Positions 12,665 through 31,263 of a DNA stretch of 64,000 bases are shown piece by piece. Both the position numbers and the translations under genes were made by a program. Positions within the stretch are counted from its first letter, which is position 1; every line of letters begins with the position of its first letter. Location: NCBI RefSeq assembly GCF_009733795.1, contig NZ_WNXX01000004.1:124001-188000 (forward strand), read 5' to 3'. Source of the DNA: Actinotalea caeni. Lineage in GTDB: Bacteria; Actinomycetota; Actinomycetes; Actinomycetales; Beutenbergiaceae. A model generated the notes under the pieces. That model saw only the letters and a program-made list of their open reading frames with translations. It did no database searches and was not told the origin of the DNA.

Positions 12665-13213
12665 TGTGCCGACCTCTCGTTCGCGGACATGGGGCACGAG
12701 CTCAGCGCCCGTGCCTCGGGACCCCGAGCATAGTGGCCACTCGGTGCCCGGACGCCGTCGTCCTTGGAGCCGAGAGGTGGAGAGTCGGATCGAGAGGTCC
12801 GGGTCGGGCCGGCCGGGCTCAGTTGGTTGTTCACACCCGGTCTTACAAGAAGATGTCATTGTCGTCATCGGTGGTGTGGATCCTGTGGGCAACCGACGTC
12901 GTCGCAGGTCGCGCCGCACGCCGAGGTGTGGACCGAGCTGCGCGCGGGTGTGTGTCGGGGTCGTGTAACTCGTGGACGAGCCAGTTCTGCACCGACGGCG
13001 TCCACCGGTTCGTCGGCCGTCGTCCACGGCGAACGACACGTTCTCCACCGTCATCCACAGCTGTATTCACATCTGTGTGTTTCGCCGCGACACGTGGGGT
13101 TGCTGTGGTAATCGAGGACGACGGGAGCGTCCGGTGGGCGACAGCCGTGAGCGGCCCGCAGGGTGGGTCGGAGCCGGCGGGGGCAGGTGGCGGCGTCCGG
13201 CTCTTCGGGCGCC
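12665..13213. other. oriC, dnaN-dnaA intergenic region
   Basis: This is a 549-bp gene-free region between dnaN and dnaA, the usual actinobacterial origin site. DnaA-box-like 9-mers include TTGTTCACA (12827-12835), the reverse of TTGCCCACA (12884-12892), the reverse of CGGTCCACA (12926-12934), TCATCCACA (13051-13059) and GTATTCACA (13063-13071). The part 12840-12880 (around TCTTACAAGAAGATGTCATT) is among the least GC-rich stretches and could help unwinding. Most boxes have one or more mismatches to TTGTCCACA, as in other high-GC origins. Confidence 0.85.
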
Positions 13214-14650
13214 TCAGGCGCGCTGCTGCTGCTTGATCCGGTTGGTCAGCTCGGTGACCTGGTTGAAGGTCGTGCGGCGCTCGGCCATCTGCTGACGGAT
13301 CTTGCGGTTGGCGTGCATGACCGTCGTGTGGTCGCGGCCGCCGAACAGCTGGCCGATCTTCGGCAGCGACAGCTCGGTGAGCTCGCGGCACAGGTACATC
13401 GCGATCTGGCGCGCGTTGACGAGAACGCGTGAGCGGTCGGCGCTGCACAGCGCGTCGATCGTCACCCCGAAGTAGTTCGCGGTCTGGCCCATGATCACCG
13501 ACGGCGTGATCTCGGCACCCTCGTCGTCGGTGATGAGGTCCTTGAGCACCATCTCCGCCAGCGCCAGGTCCACCGACTGCTGGTTGAGGTTGGCGAACGC
13601 CGTCACCCGGATGAGCGCGCCCTCGAGCTCGCGGATGTTCGAGGAGATCTTCGAGGCGATGTACTCGAGCACCTCCGGCGGCGTCTGCAGCGACTCGGCG
13701 CCCTCCTTCTTGCGGAGGATCGCGATGCGGGTCTCGAGGTCCGGCGGCTTGACGTCGGTGAGCAGCCCCCACTCGAAGCGCGAACGCATCCGGTCGTGGA
13801 ACCCGTCGAGCGCCTTCGGCGGCTGGTCGGAGGTGATGACGACCTGCTTGCGGTCGTTGTGCAGGGTGTTGAACGTGTGGAAGAACTCCTCCATCGTCTG
13901 GTCCTTGCCCTGCAAGAACTGGATGTCGTCGATGAGGAGCACGTCGACCTCGCGGTAGCGGCGCTGGAACGCCTCCGCCTTGTCGTCGCGGATCGAGTTG
14001 ATGAAGTCGTTGGTGAACTCCTCCGAGTTCACGTACCGCACCCGCACCCCGGGGTAGAGGTTGCGCGCGTAGTGCCCGATCGCGTGCAGCAGGTGGGTCT
14101 TGCCCAGCCCGGACTGCCCGTAGATGAACAGCGGGTTGTACGCCTTCGCCGGCGCCTCGGCCACGGCGGTCGCGGCCGCGTGGGCGAACCGGTTGCTCGA
14201 GCCGATGACGAAGGTGTCGAACGTGTAGTTGGGGTTGAGGCGCGCGTTCGGGTCCACGCCGACGCCGTCGATGCGGGCGTCCTGCCGGCGCTCGTGCCGC
14301 TGCTCCGGGCGCGGCTCGACGCGAACCGGCGGCGCCGGTTGCGGTGCGGGCTCGGGCGGCGGTGCGGCCGCGTCCAGGGACGGGTCGACCGTGACCGCGA
14401 CCTTGACGTCGCGAATCAGGGCGTCCGAGAGCGCCGCGGTGATCGACTCGCGCGCCCGGGTCTCGATGAACTCCTTGGCGAACTCGCTCGGCACCGCCAG
14501 CAGGATCGTGTCGTCGATGACGCCGAGCGGCTTCGTCAGCCGGATGAAGCCGAGCTGCGCGCCCGTCACCTCACCGCGGTCCTGGAGGATGTCGACGGCG
14601 CGTGCCCAGCCCTGGGCCAACGCCTCGGTCTCGACTGGCTCCTGACTCAA
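13214..14650 (-). CDS. dnaA: Chromosomal replication initiator protein DnaA
   Basis: This 478-residue initiator has an N-terminal domain I, a Pro-rich linker (about residues 92-135) and an AAA+ domain. Walker A is GQSGLGKTH at about residues 178-186, and Walker B is LLIDDIQ. The C-terminal DNA-binding domain has the signature [16 protein letters not shown] start at 14650 is proposed because GAGG lies 9 bp upstream and the product starts MSQEPVE. The in-frame ATG at 14659 directly abuts that GAGG and would leave no spacing. It is transcribed toward oriC and dnaN. Confidence 0.96.
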
Positions 14651-15160
14651 CCGGCACATCCTCGCTCACGGTTGTGAACACGCGGTCCACAACTCCATCC
14701 ACAGACTGTGGGAAGGTCCCCTCAGCACCGACAGCTCCGCCGACGTCCCCCGGCGCGTGCTGAGCGGCCATGCTAACGCCGCCGTGTTGTCCACAGGTGC
14801 GAGTCGAGCCAGGCGTCCGGATCGTCCACGCGTGTCGGAGATCGAGCACGAGGCTCGCGCCGGCGTCGGCGGGTGCGGCGCGAGGACGGGCAGCCGGACG
14901 AGCGTCGCCGGACCGCCGCGACACGGGCGCGAGCTGTGGCGCAGATCTCCGTGATCTCGCGGGTCGTCGAGGCTGCGGGGTTTGACCGCGGTCGCGACGT
15001 GCACCTATCCTTGTGCGGTTGTGTGCCGGGGTCCCGGTGCCTGCGGAGACCCGAGCCGAACCGGCAGGGCGATCCGCGCGCGGGCCGTCGCACACTCAGA
15101 CCTCGTCGGTCGGGACCCTTCACCCTGCCGGCAACATTCCGAGCATGACGGAGTCGTGAA
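14651..15160. promoter_or_regulatory. dnaA-rpmH divergent promoter region with DnaA boxes
   Basis: This is a 510-bp gene-free interval between divergent dnaA and rpmH. It carries a perfect TTGTCCACA at 14787-14795, CGGTCCACA at 14683-14691, CCATCCACA at 14695-14703, and the reverse of a TGTTCACAA-like box near 14672-14680. These sit close to the dnaA start and suit autoregulation by DnaA. They may also extend the origin, which would then flank dnaA on both sides. Confidence 0.65.
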
Positions 15161-18521: not shown

Positions 18522-19211
18522 TCAGCGCTGGACGAAGCGCTGGCAGACGCCTCGGAGGTGCGCCTGCAGCGCTTCTTGGGCGCCGTCGTGGTCATGCTCG
18601 GCGACCCGGAGGGCGATGCTGCCGTGCTCGGCGATCGTCTCGTCGAGGTCGAGGTGCCCACGGCCACGGTCCCAGCTGTGCCGCATGCGGTGCGCGTGCA
18701 CGCCGAGCGAGCTGTGCATGGCGGTCAGGAACTCGTTGGCGGCGAAGGTGAAGAAGGTGCGGTGGAACTCCAGGTCCGCGTCGAAGTACTCCCGCACGAG
18801 CGCGTAGTCCATCGTCTCGCTTCTCCGGAGCCGCTCGGCTGCCTCGACGTGCGCGTGGTGGACCGCGTCGAGCCGGGTGGCGAGGTCCTCCCAGCTGGAA
18901 CGGAACGCCCTGGTGAGTGCGGCCCGCTCGACGACGAGCCGCGCGTCGATGAGCTCCTCGATCTGCTGCTCGTCCAAGGGTGGCGCGGCGACGTAGCCGC
19001 GCTGCGCGCGGTACTGGATGAGACCCGAGCGCTCGAGCGAGACGAGCGCCTCGCGGACGGGCGTCGGCGAGACGCCGAGCTCGCGAGCGAGCGCCTCGAT
19101 GCTCACCCGCTCACCCGGTGCCCATGCTCCGGTCGTCAAGCGGTCGAAGACGACCTGGTGGATGTCCGCGCGCATGGCGCGACGTGACTCCGGCGTGTCC
19201 CGACCCGTCAT
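18522..19211 (-). CDS. GntR-family transcriptional regulator (FCD/FadR type)
   Basis: This 229-residue protein has an N-terminal winged helix (about residues 15-80) containing PGERVSIEALARELGVSPTPVREAL. An all-helical FCD ligand-binding domain follows, with the metal-binding histidine region (DADLEFHRTFF, HGSIALRVAEHD). The ATG at 19211 is chosen since the domain begins 15 residues later. It is convergent with rsmG and divergent from the amidase operon, so it most likely controls the amidase and ABC importer. Effectors of this subfamily are usually small carboxylates. Confidence 0.9.
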   Translation of the reverse strand: MTGRDTPESRRAMRADIHQVVFDRLTTGAWAPGERVSIEALARELGVSPTPVREALVSLERSGLIQYRAQRGYVAAPPLDEQQIEELIDARLVVERAALTRAFRSSWEDLATRLDAVHHAHVEAAERLRRSETMDYALVREYFDADLEFHRTFFTFAANEFLTAMHSSLGVHAHRMRHSWDRGRGHLDLDETIAEHGSIALRVAEHDHDGAQEALQAHLRGVCQRFVQR

Positions 19212-19658: not shown

Positions 19659-21005
19659 GTGCACGACGCCACCATCGGTGAGGTCGCGCGATCGATCCGC
19701 TCCGGAGCGGTCACCCCGACCGAGCTGCTCGAGCAGGTCCTCGAGCGGATCGACCGTCTCGACCCCGTTCTGCAGAGCTACGCGGCCGTGATGTCCGACG
19801 CGGCGCACCAGGACGCGGCTCGCGCGACCGCGGAGGTGCGCGCCGGCCGCGTCCGAGGGCCGCTGCACGGCGTCCCGGTCGCGGTGAAGGACCTCTACGG
19901 GACCGCCGGCACACCGACGTCGTTCGGGTCGGCGCACCTCTCCCTCGACCTGGACGACGCCGAGGTGGTCACGAGGCTGCGAACGGCCGGGGCCGTCGTC
20001 GTCGGCAAGCTGCGGATGTCGGAGGCGGCGCTCACCGACCACGGGGTCGGCCTGCCGGTGCCGCTCAACCCGTGGGACCACGACACCTGGGTGGGCACCT
20101 CCTCGAGCGGCTGCGGTGCCGCGACGGCGGCAGGTCTGTGCTTCGCCTCCATCGGGTCGGACACCGGCGGGTCCGTGCGCGGACCGGCCACGGCGGCCGG
20201 GCTCACCGGGCTGAAGCCGACGCGCGGGCGTGTCCCGGCCGACGGTGGGCTGCCGTTGTCGCGCTCGCTGGACACGGTGGGCCCCTTCGCGCGCTCGGCG
20301 CAGGACTGCCGGATCGTGCTCGAGGCCATCGCCGATCCTCGCCCGCTCACCGACGAGCTCCCGCAACGACCGCTGCGGATCGGCGTCGACCACCGCCTGC
20401 TCGACTCGGTCGCGGCGGCGACGCGCGCCATGATCCTCGAGACGGCGGAGGTCTTCAGGACGCTGGACGTCCAGGTCGTCGAGGTGACCGTCCCCGACGG
20501 CCGTGGTCTCGCCGACGACTGGGTGACCTACGTCGGAGCCGAGGCCGTCGAGGACATCGGTCACCTCTACCCGGACGACAGGCGCGAGAGCTTCGGACCC
20601 GAGGTGCGTCACGTCCTCGAGCAGGGCGCGCACGCCACCGAGGACGAGCTCGCGCGCATCCGTGCGGACGCGCGCTCCTACCAGCAGTCGCTCGACGCCG
20701 TGCTCGACGTCGTCGACGCCGTCCTGCTGCCGACCGTGAGCAGACCCTCACCGACGCTGGCCGACATCGCAGAGATGCGCCGCGACTACGCCGTCTGGAA
20801 CAGCGAGCTGATGCGACTGACCTGCCCCATGAACTTCTCCGGCCATCCCGCCCTCACGATGCCGACCGGCTTCGGTGACCGCGGCACACCTCTCGGCGCC
20901 CAGCTCGTCGGCCGTCACAACGAGGAGAACCTGCTGCTGCATCTCGGCGAGCTCTTCCAGAGCGTCACCGACCACCACAGCCGCCGACCAGCGGGCTGTC
21001 CCTGA
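19659..21005 (+). CDS. Amidase-signature family amidase
   Basis: This 448-residue amidase-signature hydrolase shows the Ser-cisSer-Lys triad: Lys77 in PVAVKDLYG, the cis-Ser around 148 in VGTSSSGCGAA, and nucleophile Ser172 in SDTGGSVRGP. It hydrolyses an amide to the acid plus ammonia or an amine. It is not GatA: no gatB or gatC is near, and it sits beside a solute importer. The GTG start follows a GGAGGGTGAG ribosome binding site. It probably acts on a substrate delivered by the downstream ABC transporter. Confidence 0.92.
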   Translation: MHDATIGEVARSIRSGAVTPTELLEQVLERIDRLDPVLQSYAAVMSDAAHQDAARATAEVRAGRVRGPLHGVPVAVKDLYGTAGTPTSFGSAHLSLDLDDAEVVTRLRTAGAVVVGKLRMSEAALTDHGVGLPVPLNPWDHDTWVGTSSSGCGAATAAGLCFASIGSDTGGSVRGPATAAGLTGLKPTRGRVPADGGLPLSRSLDTVGPFARSAQDCRIVLEAIADPRPLTDELPQRPLRIGVDHRLLDSVAAATRAMILETAEVFRTLDVQVVEVTVPDGRGLADDWVTYVGAEAVEDIGHLYPDDRRESFGPEVRHVLEQGAHATEDELARIRADARSYQQSLDAVLDVVDAVLLPTVSRPSPTLADIAEMRRDYAVWNSELMRLTCPMNFSGHPALTMPTGFGDRGTPLGAQLVGRHNEENLLLHLGELFQSVTDHHSRRPAGCP

Positions 21006-21296
21006 CACCTCACCGCTGAGCGCCGCGCGCTACCGGCCGGACCCACCGCCGTCCGCCCCCGCAGGCGCCCCACGCGGAGCGCACCGCTGACCGCGGTGCG
21101 TCGTCCGCGCGCACGGATCAACGGTGCCATCTCCGCCACACCAGCGGCGGGGCCGGTACCGCAACGCGCGCCGACCCACGGGTCCGACGCACGTACACCT
21201 CGTCGGCACCGACGTCGTCGCGGTTGAACCCACGCCTCTCCGGCGGCTGCGTCACGCACCGTCCGGCAACGAGGCACACCCAGATTGGAGACACGC

Positions 21297-22709
21297 ATGC
21301 GCAACAACAGATCACGACTGGCCATGGCGGGCGGCCTGCTGTCGCTCGCCCTGGTCGCCACCGCCTGCTCCGGCGGCTTCGGCGGCAACGCCGGCAACGG
21401 CGGCGGCGGGGGCGGCGGCGACAGCGGCAGCGGCTCGACGAACGACGGCGGCGGCACGAGCGGCGTCACCATCGACGTCATCGCCGTCAACCTCCCCGCG
21501 CAGGAGGACCTGGTGGCCATGACCGCCGAGCACTTCACGCCCGCGACCGGTATCACCGTGAACTTCACGCTGCTGCCGGAGAACGACGTCCGCGCGAAGA
21601 TCACGCAGGAGTTCTCCTCGCAGGCCGGTGTCTACGACGTGGCGACGCTGTCCAACTACGAGATCCCGTTCTACGCGGACAACGGCTGGGTCGTCCCGAT
21701 CGACGACTACCTCGCCCAGGACTCCGACTTCGAGCCGGAGGACATGCTGCCGTCGATGATGGCGTCGATGACAGGGTCCGACGGCAAGACCTACGGGATG
21801 CCCTTCGAGGGGCAGTCCTCCTTCACGATGTACCGCAAGAGCGTGTTCGACGAGCTCGGCCTGACGATGCCGTCGAACCCGACGTGGGACGAGGTCGCGG
21901 AGCTCGCGGCGACCATCGACGAGCAGACCGACATGGACGGCATCTGTCTGCGCGGTCTGCCGGGATGGGGCCAGCAGCTCGCCCCGCTCAACACGGTCAT
22001 CAATACCTTCGGCGGGACGTGGTTCGATGAGAACTGGGACGCGCAGCTCACCTCGCCCGAGACGGTCGAGGCCGTCGAGTTCTACGTGAACCTCATCCAG
22101 GAGCACGGCGAGCCGGGCGCTGCGCAGGCGGGCTTCGTCGAGTGCCTCAACCGCTTCATGCAGGGCGACGCCGCGATCTGGGTGGACGCGACGAACGCGG
22201 GTGGACCCGTGGAGGCGGCGGACTCGCCGATCGCCGGCGACATCGGCTACGCCCAGTCCCCCGTCAAGCTCACGGACGCCTCGGGCTGGCTCTGGACCTG
22301 GGCCTGGGGCATCCAGGCAGCGTCCACCGAGCAGGACGCGGCCTGGCAGTTCGTGTCCTGGGCGAGCTCTCGCGAGTACGAGGAGCTCATCGCTGAGAAG
22401 TACGACTGGTCGCGCGTGCCCTACGGCAAGCGCCAGTCCACGTTCGACAACCCCGCCTTCCAGGAGGGTGCCCCGTTCTACGAGGCCGCCATGGAGGCGA
22501 TCACCAGCGTCGACGCCGAAAACCCGGGTGTGCAGCCACGCCCGTACCCCGGTGTGCAGTTCGTCGGCATCCCTGAGTTCATCTCGCTCGGGACCACCGT
22601 GTCCGAGTACATCGCCTCTGCCATCGCCGGCAGCACCTCCGTGCAGGAGGCCCTCGAGGCGGCGCAGGTCGCCGCGCAAGAGGTCGGCGACAAGTACAAG
22701 AACAAGTAG
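21297..22709 (+). CDS. ABC transporter extracellular solute-binding protein (carbohydrate type)
   Basis: This 470-residue family-1 solute-binding protein has a lipoprotein signal with the lipobox LVATAC (Cys24). A flexible Gly/Ser-rich linker of about 35 residues follows, then the binding domains (EHFTPATGITVNFTLLPENDVRAKI and TYGMPFEGQSSFTMYRKSVFDELGL are typical). The ATG at 21297 is preferred because GGAG lies 8 bp upstream; a TTG 4 codons earlier overlaps that site. The gene opens the importer operon 291 bp after the amidase. The closest families bind sugars or sugar alcohols, and the ligand is unknown. Confidence 0.92.
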   Translation: MRNNRSRLAMAGGLLSLALVATACSGGFGGNAGNGGGGGGGDSGSGSTNDGGGTSGVTIDVIAVNLPAQEDLVAMTAEHFTPATGITVNFTLLPENDVRAKITQEFSSQAGVYDVATLSNYEIPFYADNGWVVPIDDYLAQDSDFEPEDMLPSMMASMTGSDGKTYGMPFEGQSSFTMYRKSVFDELGLTMPSNPTWDEVAELAATIDEQTDMDGICLRGLPGWGQQLAPLNTVINTFGGTWFDENWDAQLTSPETVEAVEFYVNLIQEHGEPGAAQAGFVECLNRFMQGDAAIWVDATNAGGPVEAADSPIAGDIGYAQSPVKLTDASGWLWTWAWGIQAASTEQDAAWQFVSWASSREYEELIAEKYDWSRVPYGKRQSTFDNPAFQEGAPFYEAAMEAITSVDAENPGVQPRPYPGVQFVGIPEFISLGTTVSEYIASAIAGSTSVQEALEAAQVAAQEVGDKYKNK

Positions 22710-22722
22710 GTCCGCCTCGGTG

Positions 22723-22756
22723 CCCGGTGGCCCGCGCGCGTGCGCGGGCCACCGGG
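22723..22756 (+). terminator. Perfect 15-bp hairpin after the solute-binding protein gene
   Basis: CCCGGTGGCCCGCGC (22723-22737) pairs completely with GCGCGGGCCACCGGG (22742-22756) around a 4-nt loop. It lies inside the operon, between binding-protein and permease genes. The likely role is an attenuator or 3' mRNA stabiliser that keeps binding-protein mRNA in excess over permease mRNA. Confidence 0.75.
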
Positions 22757-22787
22757 TCCGGCGACCTCAGCGAGCGAAGGACCATCC

Positions 22788-23762
22788 GTGACCACGACTC
22801 AGCACGCGTACCGGCCGGGCCCGGTACGGGATCGCCACCGGGCCAGCGTCGCCGCGCGCGACCAGCGGCCTGGCGCGCTGCGCAGGTGGAGCGTCCGCGC
22901 ACCACTGCTGCCGGCGCTCGTCTTCACCATCCTCTTCACCCAGCTCCCGTTCGTCGGGACGCTCGTCGTCTCGTTCATGGAGTGGAACAGCCTGTTCCCG
23001 AACGAGCGCGGGTTCACCGGCCTGTCCAACTACGCCAAGGTGCTCGCCGACACCGAGCTGCGCCACACGATCGTGTTCACGGTGCAGCTGACGGCGACGG
23101 TCGTCGTCGCCAGCATGGTTCTCGGCCTCGGCCTGGCGCTGCTCGTCAACGAGCGGTTCGTCGGACGCGGCGTCGTCCGCAGCCTTCTCGTGCTCCCGTT
23201 CCTCGTCGTCCCCGTGGCGGGCGCACTCTTCTGGAAGCACGCGATCCTCAACCCCACCTACGGTCTGATGAACGGGACGATCACCGCGATCTGGCGCGTG
23301 CTCGGCCTCGACTCGCCGCCGCAGCCGGACCTGCTGTCGACGGCGCCGCTGCTCGGCATCGCGCTGTCGCTCATCTGGCGGTGGACACCGTTCATGATGC
23401 TGATCCTCCTCGCTGGCCTGCAGTCGCGGCCGCCCGAGGTGATGGAGGCGGCAGCCGTCGACGGCGCGGGCGCCTGGACGTCGTTCAGGTACATGACGTT
23501 GCCGCACATGCGGCGGTACCTGGAGCTGGGAGGGCTGTTCGGAAGCATCTACCTGGTCCAGGAGTTCGACGCGATCTTCATGCTGACCGCGGGCGGGCTG
23601 GGGACCACGAACCTGCCCTACGCGGTCTACAAGACCTTCTACCTGGCGAACGACTACGGCCTGGCGTCGGCGCTCGGTGTCGTCGTCGTCGCCGGGACGT
23701 TCGTGATCGCGATGTTCACGCTGCGCGTGCTGCTGTCGCTGTTCAAGGACAGCGCCCGTTAG
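22788..23762 (+). CDS. ABC transporter permease (carbohydrate type, first subunit)
   Basis: This 324-residue protein has six predicted transmembrane helices and the MalF-type binding-protein-dependent permease signature. The EAA loop reads RPPEVMEAAAVDGAGAWTSFRYMTLPHM. The GTG at 22788 follows GAAGGACC. It forms the channel together with the next gene. No ATP-binding subunit is encoded in this operon, so a shared MsiK/UgpC-type ATPase elsewhere is expected, as is common in actinobacteria. Confidence 0.93.
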   Translation: MTTTQHAYRPGPVRDRHRASVAARDQRPGALRRWSVRAPLLPALVFTILFTQLPFVGTLVVSFMEWNSLFPNERGFTGLSNYAKVLADTELRHTIVFTVQLTATVVVASMVLGLGLALLVNERFVGRGVVRSLLVLPFLVVPVAGALFWKHAILNPTYGLMNGTITAIWRVLGLDSPPQPDLLSTAPLLGIALSLIWRWTPFMMLILLAGLQSRPPEVMEAAAVDGAGAWTSFRYMTLPHMRRYLELGGLFGSIYLVQEFDAIFMLTAGGLGTTNLPYAVYKTFYLANDYGLASALGVVVVAGTFVIAMFTLRVLLSLFKDSAR

Positions 23763-23779
23763 TCGATTGGAGTCCTGAC

Positions 23780-24655
23780 ATGTCTGCCTTCACCATGACG
23801 ACGGGCCGCGGGTCGCCGCGTCGCAGCCCTCGAGGAGCCGCCCGCCGCAGCGTGGTCACGGGCGTCGCGGCGTGGGTCGCGGCGCTGGTGTTCGTGGCGC
23901 CGATCCTGTGGATGGTGCTGACGGCGCTCCACTCGGAGACCGACGCCGCCTCCAACCCGCCGGCGATCTTCGCGCCGCTCACGCTCGACGGCTTCCGAGC
24001 CTTCTTCGGTGGTTCCGGGATCAGCCCCTGGCCACCGCTGCTCAACTCGTTGACGGCGTCGGTCCTGTCCGTCCTGCTCGTCCTCGTGCTGGCCTTCCCA
24101 GCCGCGTTCGCGCTCTCGATCCGACCTGTCGAGAAGTGGCGGGACGTGATGTTCTTCTTCCTCACCACGAAGATGCTGCCGATCGTCGCGGCGCTGCTAC
24201 CGCTGTACCTCTTCGCGAAGACGGTCGGTGCGCTCGACAACATCTTCATGCTCGCCGTCTTCTACACGGTGATGAACATCCCGATCGCCGTGTGGATGCT
24301 GCAGTCCTTCCTCACGGAGGTCCCGCGGGAGCTGATGGAGGCGGCACAGCTGGACGGTGCGCGGGTGCTGACGATCCTGCGGCGGGTCATCCTGCCTGTC
24401 GCCTCGCCGGGGATCGCGGCCACCGCGCTGATCTGCTTCATCTTCAGCTGGAACGATCTCCTGTTCGCGCGGGTGCTGACGGGAACGATCGCGAACACCG
24501 CTCCGGTGTTCCTCACCGGTTTCGTGTCGAGCCAGGGCCTGTTCCTGGCCACCGTGTCCGCGGGTGCGCTCGCGGTGTCGCTGCCCGTGATCGCCGTCGG
24601 CGTGGCCGCGCAGGATCGGCTGGTTCAGGGACTGACGTTCGGCGCGGTCAAGTAG
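23780..24655 (+). CDS. ABC transporter permease (carbohydrate type, second subunit)
   Basis: This 291-residue MalG/LacG-like permease has six membrane helices. The EAA loop is VPRELMEAAQLDGARVLTILRRVILP, and the FFLTTKMLPIVAALLPLYLFAKT region is common in polyol and sugar permeases. A TTGGAG ribosome binding site lies 8 bp before the ATG. It is the last gene before the 4.5-kb gene-free parS region; no clear terminator hairpin is seen right after it. Confidence 0.93.
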   Translation: MSAFTMTTGRGSPRRSPRGAARRSVVTGVAAWVAALVFVAPILWMVLTALHSETDAASNPPAIFAPLTLDGFRAFFGGSGISPWPPLLNSLTASVLSVLLVLVLAFPAAFALSIRPVEKWRDVMFFFLTTKMLPIVAALLPLYLFAKTVGALDNIFMLAVFYTVMNIPIAVWMLQSFLTEVPRELMEAAQLDGARVLTILRRVILPVASPGIAATALICFIFSWNDLLFARVLTGTIANTAPVFLTGFVSSQGLFLATVSAGALAVSLPVIAVGVAAQDRLVQGLTFGAVK

Positions 24656-25383
24656 CGGGAGCGGGCGCCCGAGTCGCGTCCAGGTCGGGCTGCGCCGAGA
24701 TCGGTCGGACGGGCGAGAGGTTCGAGGTGGCCGGCACCGCCTGGCGCGGGTCATCGGGCCCGGCAACCACCAAGTCGTACGGATGTTCGAGCAGGAGTTC
24801 GTCGTCCCCGCACCCAGCCGGGTGGTCGAACCGCTGCACGGCTGCCCCCGCGCGTGCCAAGGGGGTGCGCCGTCCGGCAGGGCGACGGCGGGCGGCGACG
24901 GTCGCGCAGCAGCGACAAGGTGGCTGGACGAGGCCACGGTGTCAGGGCGTCCTGCCCTGCGGTTCCGGGCTCTGGGCGGGCACGGGTGCGCCGGTAGCCC
25001 GACGGGCGAGGGAGCGTGGAGCGTGTGTCGTGGTGACGCCGACAGTGCAGAGAGCACGAGCGCGCGGCGCGGCGCGGCGGGCACGCCCCGGTGTCGTCGG
25101 CTGGTTCTCGCGCGGCCTGCTCGCCACGTCGGCGGTCGGGCGGCGACCGGGGCTCACCGCCCGACCCCATGGAGCGATGTCCGCCCGTGTGGGATGTCAC
25201 CGCACGATCGCGCTCGGACCGCGGCACGGGTGCAGCACGGCGCGAGGCGCTCTCCGAACGCTGAGGTGGTGCCAGCTGGCTATGTCGCAGGCGTGGATCG
25301 TCCTGGAAGCGAGGGCTGGTTGCGGAGCGCCGCGCGTACGAAGGTCCGTGCTGCTCCGTTGCTCTCCACGGATGCGTGGGGGT

Positions 25384-25397
25384 GTTTCACGTGGAAC
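25384..25397. promoter_or_regulatory. parS: Degenerate parS site
   Basis: GTTTCACGTGGAAC differs from the perfect 14-bp palindrome GTTTCACGTGAAAC in one base of the right half. It is the outermost of the six sites and may bind ParB more weakly. Confidence 0.8.
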
Positions 25398-25978
25398 GGC
25401 GCTTCGCGCACGCGCTGCCCGCGCACCCGATCGGCGCGCGGTCCTCGCCCCGCCGGCGCTTCGCGTCTCCGGTGGTCTACGCCGGTGGCGGTGTGTCGGA
25501 GCGATCGGTACCCGGCAGGCGGCCGGGCGTACCTCCGTGGGCACGCGATCGTGTGCGGTGGTGGGGCGACAGCCTGGCTCGGCGAGGACCGCGCTCGGCG
25601 TTCGGTGCGAAGGCACGACGTCGTGCCGTCCGCTGTCGGCGGCCTCGTCGGGTGACGGAAGAGCCGAGCTCGGTGCGGGGTCGGATAGCCAACGGCGGGT
25701 GCCCGAAGACTGTGGCCGCCGTCCGCTCGGCGTCAGCCTGCGCGTCGCGGACGACGGTGTTGGGCATGCGGCCACGGATCGTCAGCAGGGTCGGCAGACG
25801 CACGGTGACAGCGGCATCGGCGCGGCGCGATGCCGTCCTCGCCGCGACTGCGGTGAACGGCTGCGCACCGCGACGCGGCGGGCTAGGACTCTCTCGGCCC
25901 GCGAGGCGTGTGGGGCGCCGACCTCGCATCGCTCCGCTCGGTCGGGGTAGCCGCGGTGACCTGGAGATGGCGGGTCGC

Positions 25979-25992
25979 GTTTCACGTGAAAC
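25979..25992. promoter_or_regulatory. parS: parS site
   Basis: This is the perfect palindrome GTTTCACGTGAAAC, the conserved bacterial parS core. It should nucleate ParB, encoded about 4 kb downstream. Confidence 0.95.
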
Positions 25993-26044
25993 GGCACCTC
26001 GGCATGCTCCTCTCGACAGGACAGGCGCGCGGACGGTGCCTACC

Positions 26045-26070
26045 TGCTGGTGCTGGTGCTGGTGCTGGTG
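26045..26070. repeat. Hexamer tandem repeat (TGCTGG)4
   Basis: Four perfect TGCTGG copies plus two bases stand in the gene-free region between two parS sites. It is a short simple-sequence repeat that could vary in copy number. No function is evident. Confidence 0.8.
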
Positions 26071-26429
26071 CATGCCGTGGCGGCAGCGGGGGATCGCGCC
26101 CGTCCGCGTGCTCGCGAGGGGTTCGGTCATCCGTCATGTGTTGTCCGGGGGCGGGCATGGTGGTTCACCGACATGCCGGTCTTGCAGTCCTTCGAGCCGG
26201 CTACGAGTCGTTGCGGAGGCTGTGCCCGTGGGACGCCACCACCCAAGCGGCGGACGCGGAGTCGCGCTCGCAGGTCGAGACCCCTGACGGATCGCTCCGG
26301 TCCCGTGTGCCTCGGGGGGACACGGGCGGACGGTGCCGTGGGAGCTCACGACGGTGCTGCGGCAGCTCACGGAGCGCGGCGGTGAAGGAGCCGACACCGA
26401 CCTGGCCGGGCTCGCACGCCCGTGTCTCC

Positions 26430-26443
26430 GTTTCACGTGAAAC
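26430..26443. promoter_or_regulatory. parS: parS site
   Basis: Perfect GTTTCACGTGAAAC palindrome, 437 bp from the previous site. Confidence 0.95.
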
Positions 26444-27072
26444 GCGCCGAGACGAGTGCGCCGGTCGTCGGTTCAGCCGCTGGACCTCATTCACGGTCGC
26501 GGGGGACCGCCGCGAGGTGCACGCGGGTGGATGGATGCCGGCGGTCATCAGCCTGCACGGCTGCACACGTTGTCAGCGATCGACGGATCCCAGGCTCCGC
26601 GTGGCGCCCGAGGGCTCAGGTGAGCCACCTGTGGTCACGAGTGATACGCGTCCCGGGCCGGGGGAGCGGGTGGCCGCTCCCGCGGGTGCCGCGACGCCAA
26701 GGTCGGTGGGGCCGAGGACGGACCGGGCAGCCCTTGCGATCGACGCGGTGGGCTCTGGCCAGCGCCGGGGGCTGGGGCGTGGACGCCCGGGGTACGGCGG
26801 CACGTTCCGACCCCGGGAAGGGTGCGTCCGGGTGGCGTGCTCCCGAGTGCGAGCACGTGGGCGTGCCGGGGCGCCGAGGACGCGTCGCGACGTCGACGCC
26901 GGCATGCTGGTGGCGTGGGCCCAGGCGGGTTGTCCGGGCGGCCGCGGTCGTGCTGCAGAGTCTGCGCCGCGACGTGGCAGGTACCGGTGCCTCGAGGATG
27001 CCGCTGCCTGCGGCGTGCCCTCGAGCTGCGCGGCGCAGCGTCGAGCGGGTCGCCCGCGCGCCGATGCCGGAG

Positions 27073-27310
27073 TTGTCCACAGCTCCCAGGAGTCCTGTGG
27101 ACAGCTTTCGCCCTCTAGCTAGAACCCCGCGAGAGGAGTCGAGCTCGGCGTCGCGCGCGTGGGTCGTGCCGCGGCAGCTCAGTGCTGGCGCGGGAAACTG
27201 GCACTCGGTGGGCTGCGCGGCAGGTTGGTCGAGCAGGGTAAGCCGTGGCGGACCGAGCGTCCCCGGTCCACTGGTCAGGCGAGACTGTGGACAAGACGAG
27301 GTTATGCACA
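27073..27310. other. DnaA-box cluster inside the parS region
   Basis: Four DnaA-box-like 9-mers lie within 240 bp. They are a perfect TTGTCCACA (27073-27081), the complement of CTGTCCACA (27096-27104), the complement of a second perfect TTGTCCACA (27286-27294), and TTATGCACA (27302-27310). The first two form an inverted repeat TGTCCACAG...CTGTGGACA (27074-27082 and 27095-27103). The cluster is about 14 kb from oriC and lies between parS sites. It may act as a DnaA-titrating or origin-linked site. Confidence 0.6.
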
Positions 27311-27435
27311 GGGGGTGCACAAGCCAGGATGCAGGGACCGCGGACGTGTGTCGAGCCGGGAACCGTCGACGTGAGCTCGCTGTGCCGGCGGGCTGCTCGC
27401 GGCGGACGGAGCGGGGCGGTGTGGCTGTCATGTCC

Positions 27436-27449
27436 GTTTCACGTGAAAC
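27436..27449. promoter_or_regulatory. parS: parS site
   Basis: Perfect GTTTCACGTGAAAC palindrome, 126 bp after the DnaA-box cluster. Confidence 0.95.
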
Positions 27450-27525
27450 GCCCCGCGCGCGGCTGCACTGGCCGACCCGACCGATCAGGTGAGCCCGGGG
27501 CCCGGGTGGGCGGGACCATCAACCG

Positions 27526-27636
27526 GTGCCGGGTGGTGGCTCCGGACGGGGGTGTGCCGGGTGGTGGTTCCGGACGGGGTGTGCCGGGTGGCGGGCTCCG
27601 GACGGGGTGTGCCAGGTGGCGGGTTCCGGGCGGGCC
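27526..27636. repeat. 27-28-bp tandem repeat, four copies
   Basis: Units begin at 27526, 27554, 27581 and 27609, each starting GTGCCGGGTGG or a close variant and running through TCCGGACGGGG. Copies differ at several positions, the last one most. The array lies between two parS sites. Both strands read as low-complexity peptide, so it is best viewed as a non-coding minisatellite. Confidence 0.85.
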
Positions 27637-27721
27637 GCGCCGATGGCGGCTCCGGGGGTGCCGTCTCGTGCGATCGGGGGTTCTGCTGTGACACCGCTTG
27701 CGGCGAGCCTCGCGATTCATG

Positions 27722-27735
27722 GTTTCACGTGAAAC
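27722..27735. promoter_or_regulatory. parS: parS site
   Basis: Perfect GTTTCACGTGAAAC palindrome, 286 bp from the previous site. Confidence 0.95.
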
Positions 27736-27857
27736 GCCCGCGTGTCCGGCCTGGCCATCAGACGGTGCTGACGACCTCGCGGTCGCGGAAGCCGTCGAGC
27801 GCCTTTGTCGATTGGTGGTGCGGCTGGGACGGTGACGCCGCTCGCGACAAATGCGCC

Positions 27858-27871
27858 GTTTCACGTGAAAC
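27858..27871. promoter_or_regulatory. parS: parS site closest to parA
   Basis: Perfect GTTTCACGTGAAAC palindrome. This and the two preceding sites make the densest parS cluster (three in 436 bp), 1.3 kb upstream of parA. Confidence 0.95.
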
Positions 27872-28346
27872 TCAACCACGGGGATGATGAAGACCCGTTC
27901 CCATCTGCGGGGCCATTCACGGCGACGGCCGCACACCGGCCGTCGGCGGGAGACGGCGCACTGTGCTGCGGTGCCGGTCGGCACGACACGATGCGAGACG
28001 CGGGTTCCTGTCCCCGGATCGTGCATGGCTCGACGCGAAGCTACGACGCAGGCGGTCGGCAAGACTGCTGACCGCCGGCGTGATCGCGGGCTGCTGTGGT
28101 GCCGAGATCTCGATCCAGCCCGGCAGCACGGGCATCGCACGCTGCCACCTCGGTCGGGAGCCCGCACCGGTCGACGGATTCGTGAGACCTCGTGCGCCTG
28201 GGCACCGAGCGGTCGGTGTCGGAGTGAGGCACGGACGTACGGCGGCGACGCGACGCCGCGCCAGAGCGCGATCTGTCGATCTGGGACGTGACGGCGTCGC
28301 CCTGCCTGCGGGTCGGTCGGCGACGTCGCGCGATGGGGGCTCGTAG

Positions 28347-28640
28347 AGCGCAGTCGACGTCGCCCTCGAGCACCTGTCCGGCCAATACCCCTCGCCGCTG
28401 GTCCTGGCCGAGGGTCTGCGGCACTGCGCAGGGGCGTGGCGCGGCGGACGTGGCCGAGTCCGTCGGCACCACCAGCAGGAGTGGCCCGGCAGCTCCCGCG
28501 CCGCGATCGTGTGGCGGCGGCCCGGCCTGGCCGGGTCGATGGACGGCGCCCATGACCTCGTGCGTGACCTGGGCGCCGGGCCCCTCCTGCGCGCCGGCCG
28601 CGAGATCGTACGGACCGGCGGCGAGAACGCGCGACCCCGC
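28347..28640 (+). pseudogene. Possible decayed coding remnant
   Basis: After a TAG at 28344, one plus-strand frame is open for about 100 codons. Its third positions are clearly richer in G and C than the flanks, and it gives a protein-like stretch (VDVALEHLSGQYPSPLVLAE, later GAHDLVRDLGAGPLLRAGRE). There is no convincing start codon or ribosome binding site, the composition becomes random after about 28640, and I recognise no family. It could be the remnant of a gene formerly upstream of parA, or chance. Confidence 0.25.
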
Positions 28641-29155
28641 CAGCAGCCCGCACTCGCCTCGCAGGCATCCGTGCGTCGTCCATCGCGTCCGGCAGCCGGC
28701 GAACCGGTCGCGGTGCGTCGGAGGCGTGGGGGAGGAGCCGGTGCTCGATCGTCGCCTGCGCCACTCAGGGGGCCCGTCTTGTCACCCTGCCCGCCCGGAT
28801 GTCGCCCTCGCGACCGCCGGCTCTGTCCCGGCAAGGCGATTCGTCCTGGACCTCCCATCGTTGCCGTGGGCACGGCCGTCTGCACGCCGACGCGCGCCGA
28901 CGCGCGCCGGCGTCGCGCCGCACGGCACGGTGACTTCAACACGCCACCGCGAGAGTGCACTACATCTGTCGTGCCGCGGTCGGCGCGCGCACACCCTTCC
29001 CACCCCGGCACACGGCCATCCGCCTCCCGGTCACACCCCGCACGCGCTGCCGCGGCTGGAGTAGCGTCGATCACGCCAATGAGGAGGTACGTGCCGAAGG
29101 CGGTACGCCCACCTCGGTCGTAGGCTGTGGTGACTCCACGACCGACTAGGAACCG

Positions 29156-30187
29156 ATGCATCCCGAGACCCCGCTCGACGCCAACCGTCAGGCCCGTCTG
29201 GAAGTGATTCCGCAGGTCGACGACTCGACGCCGTTGCTGGCCGAGCTCGCTGACGAAGCACGCCGACGGGTCGCGCTGCACGGCCACACCTTCGTCCGTC
29301 CCGAGCAGACCCGGGTGTTCACCGTCGCCAACCAGAAGGGTGGCGTCGGGAAGACGACGACGGCGGTCAACCTCGCCGCCGCGCTCGCCTCCGCCGGTCT
29401 GCAGGTCCTCGTCATCGACAACGACCCGCAGGGCAACGCGTCCACCGCGCTGGGCGTCGAGCACCGGGTGGGGACGCCGTCGACCTACGACGTCCTCATC
29501 AACGAGGTGCCGATGGCCGACGTCGCGGTGCCCTCGAGCGCGTTCCCCAACCTCGTGGTCGTGCCTGCCACGATCGACCTGTCGGGCGCCGAGATCGAGC
29601 TGGTCTCGATGGTCGCCCGCGAGAACCGGCTGCGCAACGCGCTCGCGGAGTACCTGCGCCACCGGGTCCGCGAGGGGCAGCCGCGCGTCGACTACGTCTT
29701 CATCGACTGCCCGCCGAGCCTGGGGCTGCTCACCGTCAACGCGTTCGTCGCCGCGCGCGAGGTGCTGATCCCCATCCAGACCGAGTACTACGCGCTCGAG
29801 GGCCTCGGTCAGCTCCTCAACAGCATCGAGCTGATCCGCGCCCACCTCAACCCCGCGCTGCACGTCTCGACGATCCTGCTGACGATGTTCGACGCCCGTA
29901 CCAACCTCGCACGTGAGGTCGCGGACGAGGTGCGCACCCACTTCCCGGACCAGACGCTGCGCACCACCGTGCCGCGCTCGGTCCGCATCTCCGAGGCGCC
30001 GGGCCACGGGCAGACCGTGCTGACCTACGATCCGGGGTCGAGCGGTGCGCTCACCTACCGCGAGGCCGCGCGCGAGCTCAACGAGCGGTCGCCGCGGGCG
30101 CAGGAGAGCAGCACCGGTCAGGGCCAGGCGGCCACCGAGCAGGCAGGCGCCGCCGAGGCGACCGGCGATGGAGGAACAGACGCATGA
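29156..30187 (+). CDS. parA: Chromosome partitioning ATPase ParA
   Basis: This 343-residue Walker-type ATPase has the deviant Walker A KGGVGKTT at residues 61-68, Walker A' (VLVIDNDPQGN) and Walker B (VFIDCPPSLG). A 50-residue N-terminal extension and an acidic, Gln/Ala-rich C-terminal tail frame the core. It binds DNA non-specifically as an ATP dimer and moves ParB-parS complexes, segregating the origin region. The ATG at 29156 follows TAGGAA. The stop overlaps the parB start by 4 bp. Confidence 0.97.
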   Translation: MHPETPLDANRQARLEVIPQVDDSTPLLAELADEARRRVALHGHTFVRPEQTRVFTVANQKGGVGKTTTAVNLAAALASAGLQVLVIDNDPQGNASTALGVEHRVGTPSTYDVLINEVPMADVAVPSSAFPNLVVVPATIDLSGAEIELVSMVARENRLRNALAEYLRHRVREGQPRVDYVFIDCPPSLGLLTVNAFVAAREVLIPIQTEYYALEGLGQLLNSIELIRAHLNPALHVSTILLTMFDARTNLAREVADEVRTHFPDQTLRTTVPRSVRISEAPGHGQTVLTYDPGSSGALTYREAARELNERSPRAQESSTGQGQAATEQAGAAEATGDGGTDA

Positions 30188-31263
30188 ACGAGCGGCGGCA
30201 CGCGCTGGGCCGGGGCCTGGGTGCGCTCATCCCGACCGGCCCGAAGGGCGGCGGGACCGAGCGTCCCGTCGACGTCTTCTTCCCCGACCACCGCAACCCG
30301 TACGCGGACTCCGAGACCGACGGCGTCCCGTCCGAGCCCACCAACGGCGCACCGTCTCCGTCGACCCCCCACGGCGACGACGGACCCGAGCTGGTTCCGG
30401 TGCCCGGCGCGACCTTCGCCGAGGTGCCGATCGACGCGATCGTCCCCAACGCCGTCCAGCCCCGGACGGTGTTCGACGAGGACGCCCTCGCCGAGCTGGC
30501 CGACTCGATCCGCACCGTCGGCGTGCTGCAGCCGGTCGTCGTGCGCTCGACGGGCCGTGCCGAGGACGGCAGCCCGACCTACGAGCTCATCATGGGCGAG
30601 CGCCGCTGGCGCGCCTCCCGGCTCGCAGGCCGCACCACGATCCCCGCGATCGTGCGCGAGACCGAGCAGGTCGACATGCTCCGGGACGCGCTGCTGGAGA
30701 ACCTGCACCGCAGCCAGCTGAACCCGCTGGAGGAGGCCGCCGCCTACACGCAGCTGCTCGAGGACTTCGGCTGCACCCAGGAGGAGCTGGCCACCAAGAT
30801 CGCGCGCTCGCGGCCGCAGATCTCCAACACGCTGCGCCTGCTCAAGCTGCCGCCGCTGGTGCAGCGCCGCGTCGCCGCCGGCGTGCTCTCCGCCGGCCAC
30901 GCGCGCGCCCTCCTCGGGCTCTCGGACGCCGCCGCCATGGAGCGGCTGGCGCAGCGGATCGTCGCCGAGGGGCTCAGCGTGCGGGCCACCGAGGAGATCG
31001 TCGCGCTCGGCGAGGTCGACGGCGAGGAGAAGCCCGCCCGTCGCACCAAGCCGCGCGCCGGCATGCACCGCGCCGCGCTCGACGACCTGTCGGCCCGGCT
31101 GTCGGACCGCCTCGACACGAAGGTCAAGGTCAACCTCGGGCAGCGCAAGGGCACGATCAGCATCGACTTCGCCAACGTGGCCGACCTCAACCGCATCCTC
31201 GCCAGCCTCGCGCCCGACGACCCCGGCGTGCTGCGCAGCAACGACGACGGCGCAGAGGACTGA
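30184..31263 (+). CDS. parB: Chromosome partitioning protein ParB
   Basis: This 359-residue ParB is a CTP-dependent DNA clamp that loads at parS and spreads. The N-terminal CTP-binding fold shows VGVLQPVVVR, GERRWRAS and ENLHRSQLNPLEEA. The helix-turn-helix that reads parS follows (CTQEELATKIARSRPQISNTLRLL), and a C-terminal dimerisation domain closes the protein. The GRGLGALIP start is the ParA-interacting peptide. Its target sites are the six palindromes 2.3-4.8 kb upstream. It is convergent with the ddl-like gene, with 9 bp between stop codons. Confidence 0.97.
   Translation: MNERRHALGRGLGALIPTGPKGGGTERPVDVFFPDHRNPYADSETDGVPSEPTNGAPSPSTPHGDDGPELVPVPGATFAEVPIDAIVPNAVQPRTVFDEDALAELADSIRTVGVLQPVVVRSTGRAEDGSPTYELIMGERRWRASRLAGRTTIPAIVRETEQVDMLRDALLENLHRSQLNPLEEAAAYTQLLEDFGCTQEELATKIARSRPQISNTLRLLKLPPLVQRRVAAGVLSAGHARALLGLSDAAAMERLAQRIVAEGLSVRATEEIVALGEVDGEEKPARRTKPRAGMHRAALDDLSARLSDRLDTKVKVNLGQRKGTISIDFANVADLNRILASLAPDDPGVLRSNDDGAED

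Follow-up and report, generated by a model that had tools for sequence, protein, structure and literature searches.

In Caulobacter crescentus, DnaA has been reported to bind boxes of the origin-proximal parS locus, triggering centromere movement (excerpts of PMC6399470 and PMC6667618). Bacillus subtilis possesses six DnaA-box clusters outside oriC, and removal of all six leads to early initiation (excerpt of PMC5295017). In Escherichia coli, datA and DARS represent DnaA-box clusters outside oriC, with head-to-head DnaA contacts at DARS (excerpt of PMC5742627), while initiator and ParB sites occur together at rctA/parS2 of Vibrio cholerae, affecting replication as well as parAB according to the excerpted source. 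In the open-licence literature, a scope outside which the study of Smulczyk-Krawczyszyn et al. (2006) falls, we encountered no account of actinomycete DnaA boxes located at parA or parS, nor of several good boxes embedded among the parS sites of an actinomycete and recurring upstream of parA across genera.

A centromeric DnaA site of C. crescentus was reportedly described by Mera et al. in 2014. In Streptomyces, a DnaA-box cluster outside oriC is said to regulate chromosome replication, reportedly by DnaA titration, as presented by Smulczyk-Krawczyszyn et al. in 2006; clusters of this kind there are named D78, H24 and H69. Beyond such few models (Caulobacter, B. subtilis and V. cholerae), how segregation is made to follow initiation is, to our knowledge, an open question.

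The box cluster and its setting in the parS array

The stretch of Actinotalea caeni DNA analysed here (64 kb, referred to as the window) was found to contain the following features, in which parS sites and intervals are given without strand:

12665..13213: dnaN-dnaA interval, likely oriC, with degenerate boxes (bounds by eye)
13214..14659, minus strand: dnaA (Bac_DnaA and Bac_DnaA_C matches)
24656..29155: stretch with the parS array and the box cluster, with little codon-position bias
25384..25397: parS, one mismatch
25979..25992: parS, perfect
26430..26443: parS, perfect, left of the cluster
27069..27107, plus strand: inverted repeat spanning boxes 1 and 2, hairpin-capable (RNA fold)
27073..27081, plus strand: DnaA box 1, TTGTCCACA, perfect (motif scan)
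27096..27104, minus strand: DnaA box 2, CTGTCCACA, one mismatch, converging on box 1 with a gap of 14 bp
27286..27294, minus strand: DnaA box 3, TTGTCCACA, perfect (motif scan)
27302..27310, plus strand: DnaA box 4, TTATGCACA, the sole TTATNCACA site of the genome
27314..27322, minus strand: weak DnaA box 5, TTGTGCACC, two mismatches, 3 bp from box 4
27436..27449: parS, perfect, right of the cluster
27722..27735: parS, perfect
27858..27871: parS, perfect
29156..30187, plus strand: parA, chromosomal ParA ATPase
30184..31263, plus strand: parB

The two perfect and two near-match boxes that an earlier, sequence-only reading had placed within 240 bp were all recovered at their positions, and the weak fifth box was added to these four. 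As that reading had also claimed, the cluster lies among parS sites, with a perfect site on either side, and the dnaN-dnaA interval is located ~14 kb away. The parS array consists of five perfect sites and one near-perfect site (25384 to 27871), and all three exact boxes (3/3) are located between its outermost members. The surrounding stretch (24656-29155) was read as non-coding based on its little codon-position bias and on the lack of a Pfam match in the eight ORFs scanned from it; a ninth scanned ORF, located outside this stretch (18558-19184), likewise had no Pfam match. A short non-coding segment that lies outside oriC thus contains at least three DnaA boxes, beyond chance expectation (see below), and represents an extra-oriC DnaA-box cluster near oriC.

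Two further observations concern the surroundings. Positions 25001-28000 of the window, corresponding to the parS region, exhibit a strong G-skew on the plus strand, up to +98 per kb, unlike the flanks. The usual gene order, in which rsmG is followed by parA, is broken here by an amidase gene and a sugar-type ABC transporter operon (19659-24655), located between rsmG and the parS array.

The 9-bp inverted repeat that had been noted is present as boxes 1 and 2, but the hairpin to which it belongs is longer than 9 bp. RNA folding assigned this hairpin an energy of -23.9 kcal/mol (z -5.6), and 0/200 shuffles were equally good. Given so stable a prediction, 27069-27107 could be taken as an RNA or terminator element that resembles DnaA boxes by coincidence. 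This explanation is very improbable, since it would leave boxes 3 and 4 unexplained, neither a terminator-like site nor an Rfam match was found, and convergent box pairs, which form hairpins by themselves, recur in relatives. The scan, whose promoter model fits G+C-rich actinomycetes poorly, identified no promoters or terminators.

Chance, origin function and other candidate DnaA targets

For a comparison with chance, perfect TTRTCCACA sites were scored as 2 and one-mismatch boxes as 1, and the best 250-bp stretch of each 64-kb window was recorded. The window reached a score of 6, at the cluster, against a maximum of 3 among 3,000 simulated windows (1,000 of 64 kb per Markov order, for orders 1 to 3). 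The sequence-only reading would have been refuted if clusters of four such 9-mers were common in shuffled sequence of equal composition; with 0/3,000 simulated windows above 3, comparable clusters were not common.

The entire genome (4.0 Mb in 49 contigs, of which the window represents 64 kb) was also scanned. TTGTCCACA was present at 12 sites, two of which are in the cluster, compared with 3 for the backwards pattern, and TTATNCACA at one site (box 4), compared with 1 backwards. For TTRTNCACA, 19 sites were identified versus 9 backwards, three of the 19 being situated within 238 bp at the cluster; outside the cluster, the closest other pair is ~1.3 kb apart (none below 1.2 kb). When the 19 sites were placed at random, a triple so tight was obtained in 3 of 200,000 trials. 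One-mismatch boxes (167 versus 202 backwards) displayed no genome-wide excess, so lone near-matches carry little weight and the evidence lies in the clustering and the perfect boxes. TTRTCCACA exceeded its backwards pattern in 24/24 genomes of the family, indicative of a site that is used in this family.

A chance grouping would agree with the lack of an excess of one-mismatch boxes and with the lack of conservation in congeners (see below); confronted with the simulated windows and the random placements, it is scarcely credible. Judged by its sequence, the group is a real extra-oriC DnaA-box cluster, to which DnaA would bind, and not a product of chance. The earlier observation holds, on stronger grounds than its reader could know.

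The dnaA product contains a box-binding domain (Bac_DnaA_C match), and the dnaN-dnaA interval was found to harbour zero perfect boxes and two one-mismatch boxes, at 12827 (TTGTTCACA) and 12884 (TTGCCCACA), which bears out the claim that the boxes of the cluster are better than those at oriC. Several good boxes in non-coding DNA could also mark an alternative or remnant replication origin, as the sequence-only reading had suggested. This idea is disfavoured and highly improbable. No AT-rich unwinding element was found beside the boxes: among 40-mers up to 300 bp from the cluster, AT content peaks at 45%, compared with 57.5% between dnaN and dnaA. Cumulative GC skew reaches its minimum around 11-12 kb and does not turn again at 27 kb. 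Positions 27780-27816 (37 bp) resemble a portion of dnaA at 84% and would have suited an origin remnant, but were rejected as such, as matches of control regions were as good or better.

Some 61 kb rightward of the cluster, a second box group was identified ahead of dnaB (NCBIfam DnaB), so that the par cluster represents one of few likely DnaA targets. A corresponding group precedes the same gene start, judged by eye, in Pseudactinotalea suaedae:

L137 1408-1509 (own genome C44, about 212.09-212.19 kb): dnaB-upstream box group of the host
L155 2389-2498: dnaB-upstream box group of P. suaedae

Together, these groups suggest DnaA control of the replicative helicase in both species, and DnaA boxes upstream of dnaB have been reported in Caulobacter (excerpt of PMC8203912).

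Elsewhere in the host genome, a convergent pair of CTGTCCACA and TTGTCCACA (L156 2611-2645; C14, about 25.61-25.64 kb) is apparently intergenic and located upstream of a gene that, judged by eye, resembles methionine aminopeptidase. One-mismatch box-like 9-mers in the same direction and with 28-bp spacing were observed at C2:15113, C3:83253, C8:1470 and C11:340047.

Box groups upstream of parA in relatives

Comparison of the 4.5-kb region with 107 locus sequences yielded 8 weak, scattered matches only, and position and box content were therefore compared instead. Both congeners possess parS arrays, and a one-mismatch box was present in 0/2 of these, indicating that the cluster is not conserved within the genus. 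Retention in close relatives, which we had set ourselves as a mark of a Caulobacter-type site, was accordingly observed in 0/2 congeners. The sequence-only reading had proposed to check the boxes for conservation in relatives; such conservation is absent from the two congeners but is seen, less strictly, in other genera. In P. suaedae, assigned to the same genus, the parS array (L154 8673-12010; G001 C19) is located 17.6 kb from parA, apparently parted from it by other genes. The parA start region common to the three congeners (host included) carries TAGGCT ~35 bp before the start and has no boxes. The cluster is ~1.8 kb from this promoter-like element, so classical promoter control by the cluster would not be direct here; the exact box nearest to parA is at -1854, and none is found within about 450 bp of the gene, the range that the g8 loci (see below), with clusters at the parA promoter region, suggest for a parA promoter controlled by DnaA.

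For the family, the 3.3 kb upstream of parA were evaluated with 1,000 simulations per locus and a cutoff of p<=0.005. The test covered 22 of 24 genomes, the exceptions being P. suaedae, owing to its distant array, and G005, which had no parA match. Ten of the 22 loci passed, namely the window, 8/8 loci of genus g8 and G007 (genus g5), and 12/22 were without a cluster at this cutoff. In all eight g8 loci, the cluster spans ~-440 to -130 relative to parA, beyond or adjoining the last parS, and several box columns are kept in the alignment; in 3/8 loci, boxes at -220, -199, -180 and -159/-158 are evenly spaced and share one direction. Across 4,800 bp preceding parA, 27 exact boxes were counted in g8, whereas 200 permuted motifs averaged 0.1 (at most 5); the last set of this comparison was left unused because of a mis-anchored locus (L024), which was dropped from the 600-bp counts as well. 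In G007, the cluster (TGGTCCACA, TTATGCACA and, on the minus strand, TTGTCCACA, at -837 to -751) is nested between parS sites at -1080 and -703.

Outside the family, 3/40 loci of the order passed the same cutoff and 37/40 were without a cluster, in a sample hand-picked from 192 genomes with a match and comprising nearly always one locus per genus (two for g16; some genera absent). Combined with the 12/22 family loci, this indicates that most lineages manage without the module. Additional f15 and g19 loci were included because a sampled member had a cluster, and their counts represent a follow-up rather than a survey: 4/4 further g48 and 5/8 further g19 loci passed, and no exact boxes were found in the follow-up f15 genera g40, g53, g70 and g24. 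The nine g19 loci comprise two nested clusters (G081 and G146), four near the parA start, with boxes within ~450 bp of the gene, and three loci with none passing. A nested placement like that of the window was thus observed in G007, G081 and G146.

A nested placement was rejected for g48, in which a long N-terminal ParA extension holds parS inside the gene, the boxes being located just upstream of its start. This extension (L209, L219, L220, L221 and L222) encompasses several hundred residues and begins with a conserved V-S-x-L-G-W-P-S; the parS within the coding sequence is translated as VSRET.

In Streptomyces, 13/22 loci were shown to carry one exact box within 600 bp upstream of parA, at -153 or -156; the corresponding count for other named loci was 6/55. 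Clusters that precede parA and lie within or next to the parS array are a real, recurrent and patchy trait.

Box pairs within 20 bp were classified at 30 loci, mostly selected for clusters and with some boxes entering more than one pair, giving 18 convergent, 5 divergent and 24 tandem pairs. Gaps of ~11-15 bp recur across loci in convergent pairs, and a pair with 23 bp from start to start is found alike at boxes 1 and 2 of the window and at two g8 loci. The DnaA domain I dimer is conserved across actinomycetes, and self-interaction of the domain has been proposed to aid cooperative and long-distance contacts (excerpt of PMC13270200); such a dimer would suit box pairs of this kind.

The positions in relatives also bear on the idea that the cluster is a relic, i.e. 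an ancestral DnaA operator of the parA promoter that was displaced by parS-array growth or insertions and has little function now. Such an ancestry would fit the boxes located within ~450 bp of parA in g8, Streptomyces and four of nine g19 loci, as well as the shifted array of P. suaedae. Four good boxes should, however, decay fast in non-coding DNA of 73% G+C, and similarity to the parA-upstream DNA of relatives was not found beyond the weak, scattered matches mentioned above, making a relic unlikely.

A putative link between initiation and segregation

Our preferred reading, to which we assign a probability of about one half, is that the cluster represents a putative DnaA-binding platform that acts in cis on the ParABS locus and couples initiation to segregation. 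We infer both that DnaA binds at the cluster and that it affects the par locus rather than only the level of free DnaA. Boxes 1 and 2 would be bound by DnaA as a convergent pair and boxes 3 to 5, ~190 bp away, as a second group. The par locus would sense DnaA through this complex of boxes and protein, and parAB expression or ParB-parS assembly would thereby follow replication initiation, the cluster region presumably being copied very soon after oriC fires.

The suggestion of the sequence-only reading that the cluster may couple initiation to segregation gains support from the recurrence of DnaA boxes at parS and parA in relatives. As this recurrence is upstream of parA, and mostly near its start, it favours an action on the par locus. 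The distance of ~1.85 kb between cluster and parA makes simple promoter control unlikely in this species; looping, altered ParB-parS assembly or a residual function would be possible over such a distance.

The main rival is a DnaA sink like cluster D78 of Streptomyces or the B. subtilis clusters, a function that the sequence-only reading had also considered. A high-affinity cluster close to oriC would titrate DnaA and limit re-initiation, the parS neighbourhood being merely roomy non-coding DNA near oriC. A position 14 kb from oriC, copied early, boxes better than those of oriC, and the early initiation seen in B. subtilis upon removal of all six clusters (excerpt of PMC5295017) are consistent with this possibility. 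Relatives, however, have their clusters upstream of parA and often right at its start, a placement needless for a pure sink, and we consider this explanation possible but rather doubtful.

With regard to the platform acting on the par locus, the similar box groups at the segregation genes of some relatives hint that copying and segregation of the chromosome are intrinsically linked. A broader, tentative proposal is that actinomycetes possess a DnaA module of variable position upstream of parA that ties ParABS to the initiator. This module would be a parA operator in most carriers and would have moved into the centromere here and in G007, G081 and G146, where DnaA and ParB may share one nucleoprotein structure. 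A compact module beside parS and parA in several actinomycete lineages would offer a direct and testable cis-acting link between copying and segregation, for which its natural losses and shifts in position offer comparisons.

Among known systems, the cluster resembles datA and DARS of E. coli in being a short non-coding DnaA-box cluster outside oriC, although datA and DARS2 require sites for IHF (and Fis). It shares a location outside oriC with the clusters of B. subtilis, for which a link to parS is not described in the excerpt of PMC5295017. Like the extra-oriC cluster of Streptomyces, it represents a group of DnaA boxes in an actinomycete. As at rctA/parS2 of V. cholerae, initiator sites are found together with ParB sites, the initiator there being RctB, not DnaA. 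In C. crescentus, an alphaproteobacterium, DnaA is reported to act at the site, whereas a role of DnaA at the present cluster is predicted from its sequence. The centromeric site of that species shares with this locus the presence of DnaA boxes inside a parS locus near the origin, from which the present cluster differs in that several good boxes are located among six parS sites over 2.5 kb.
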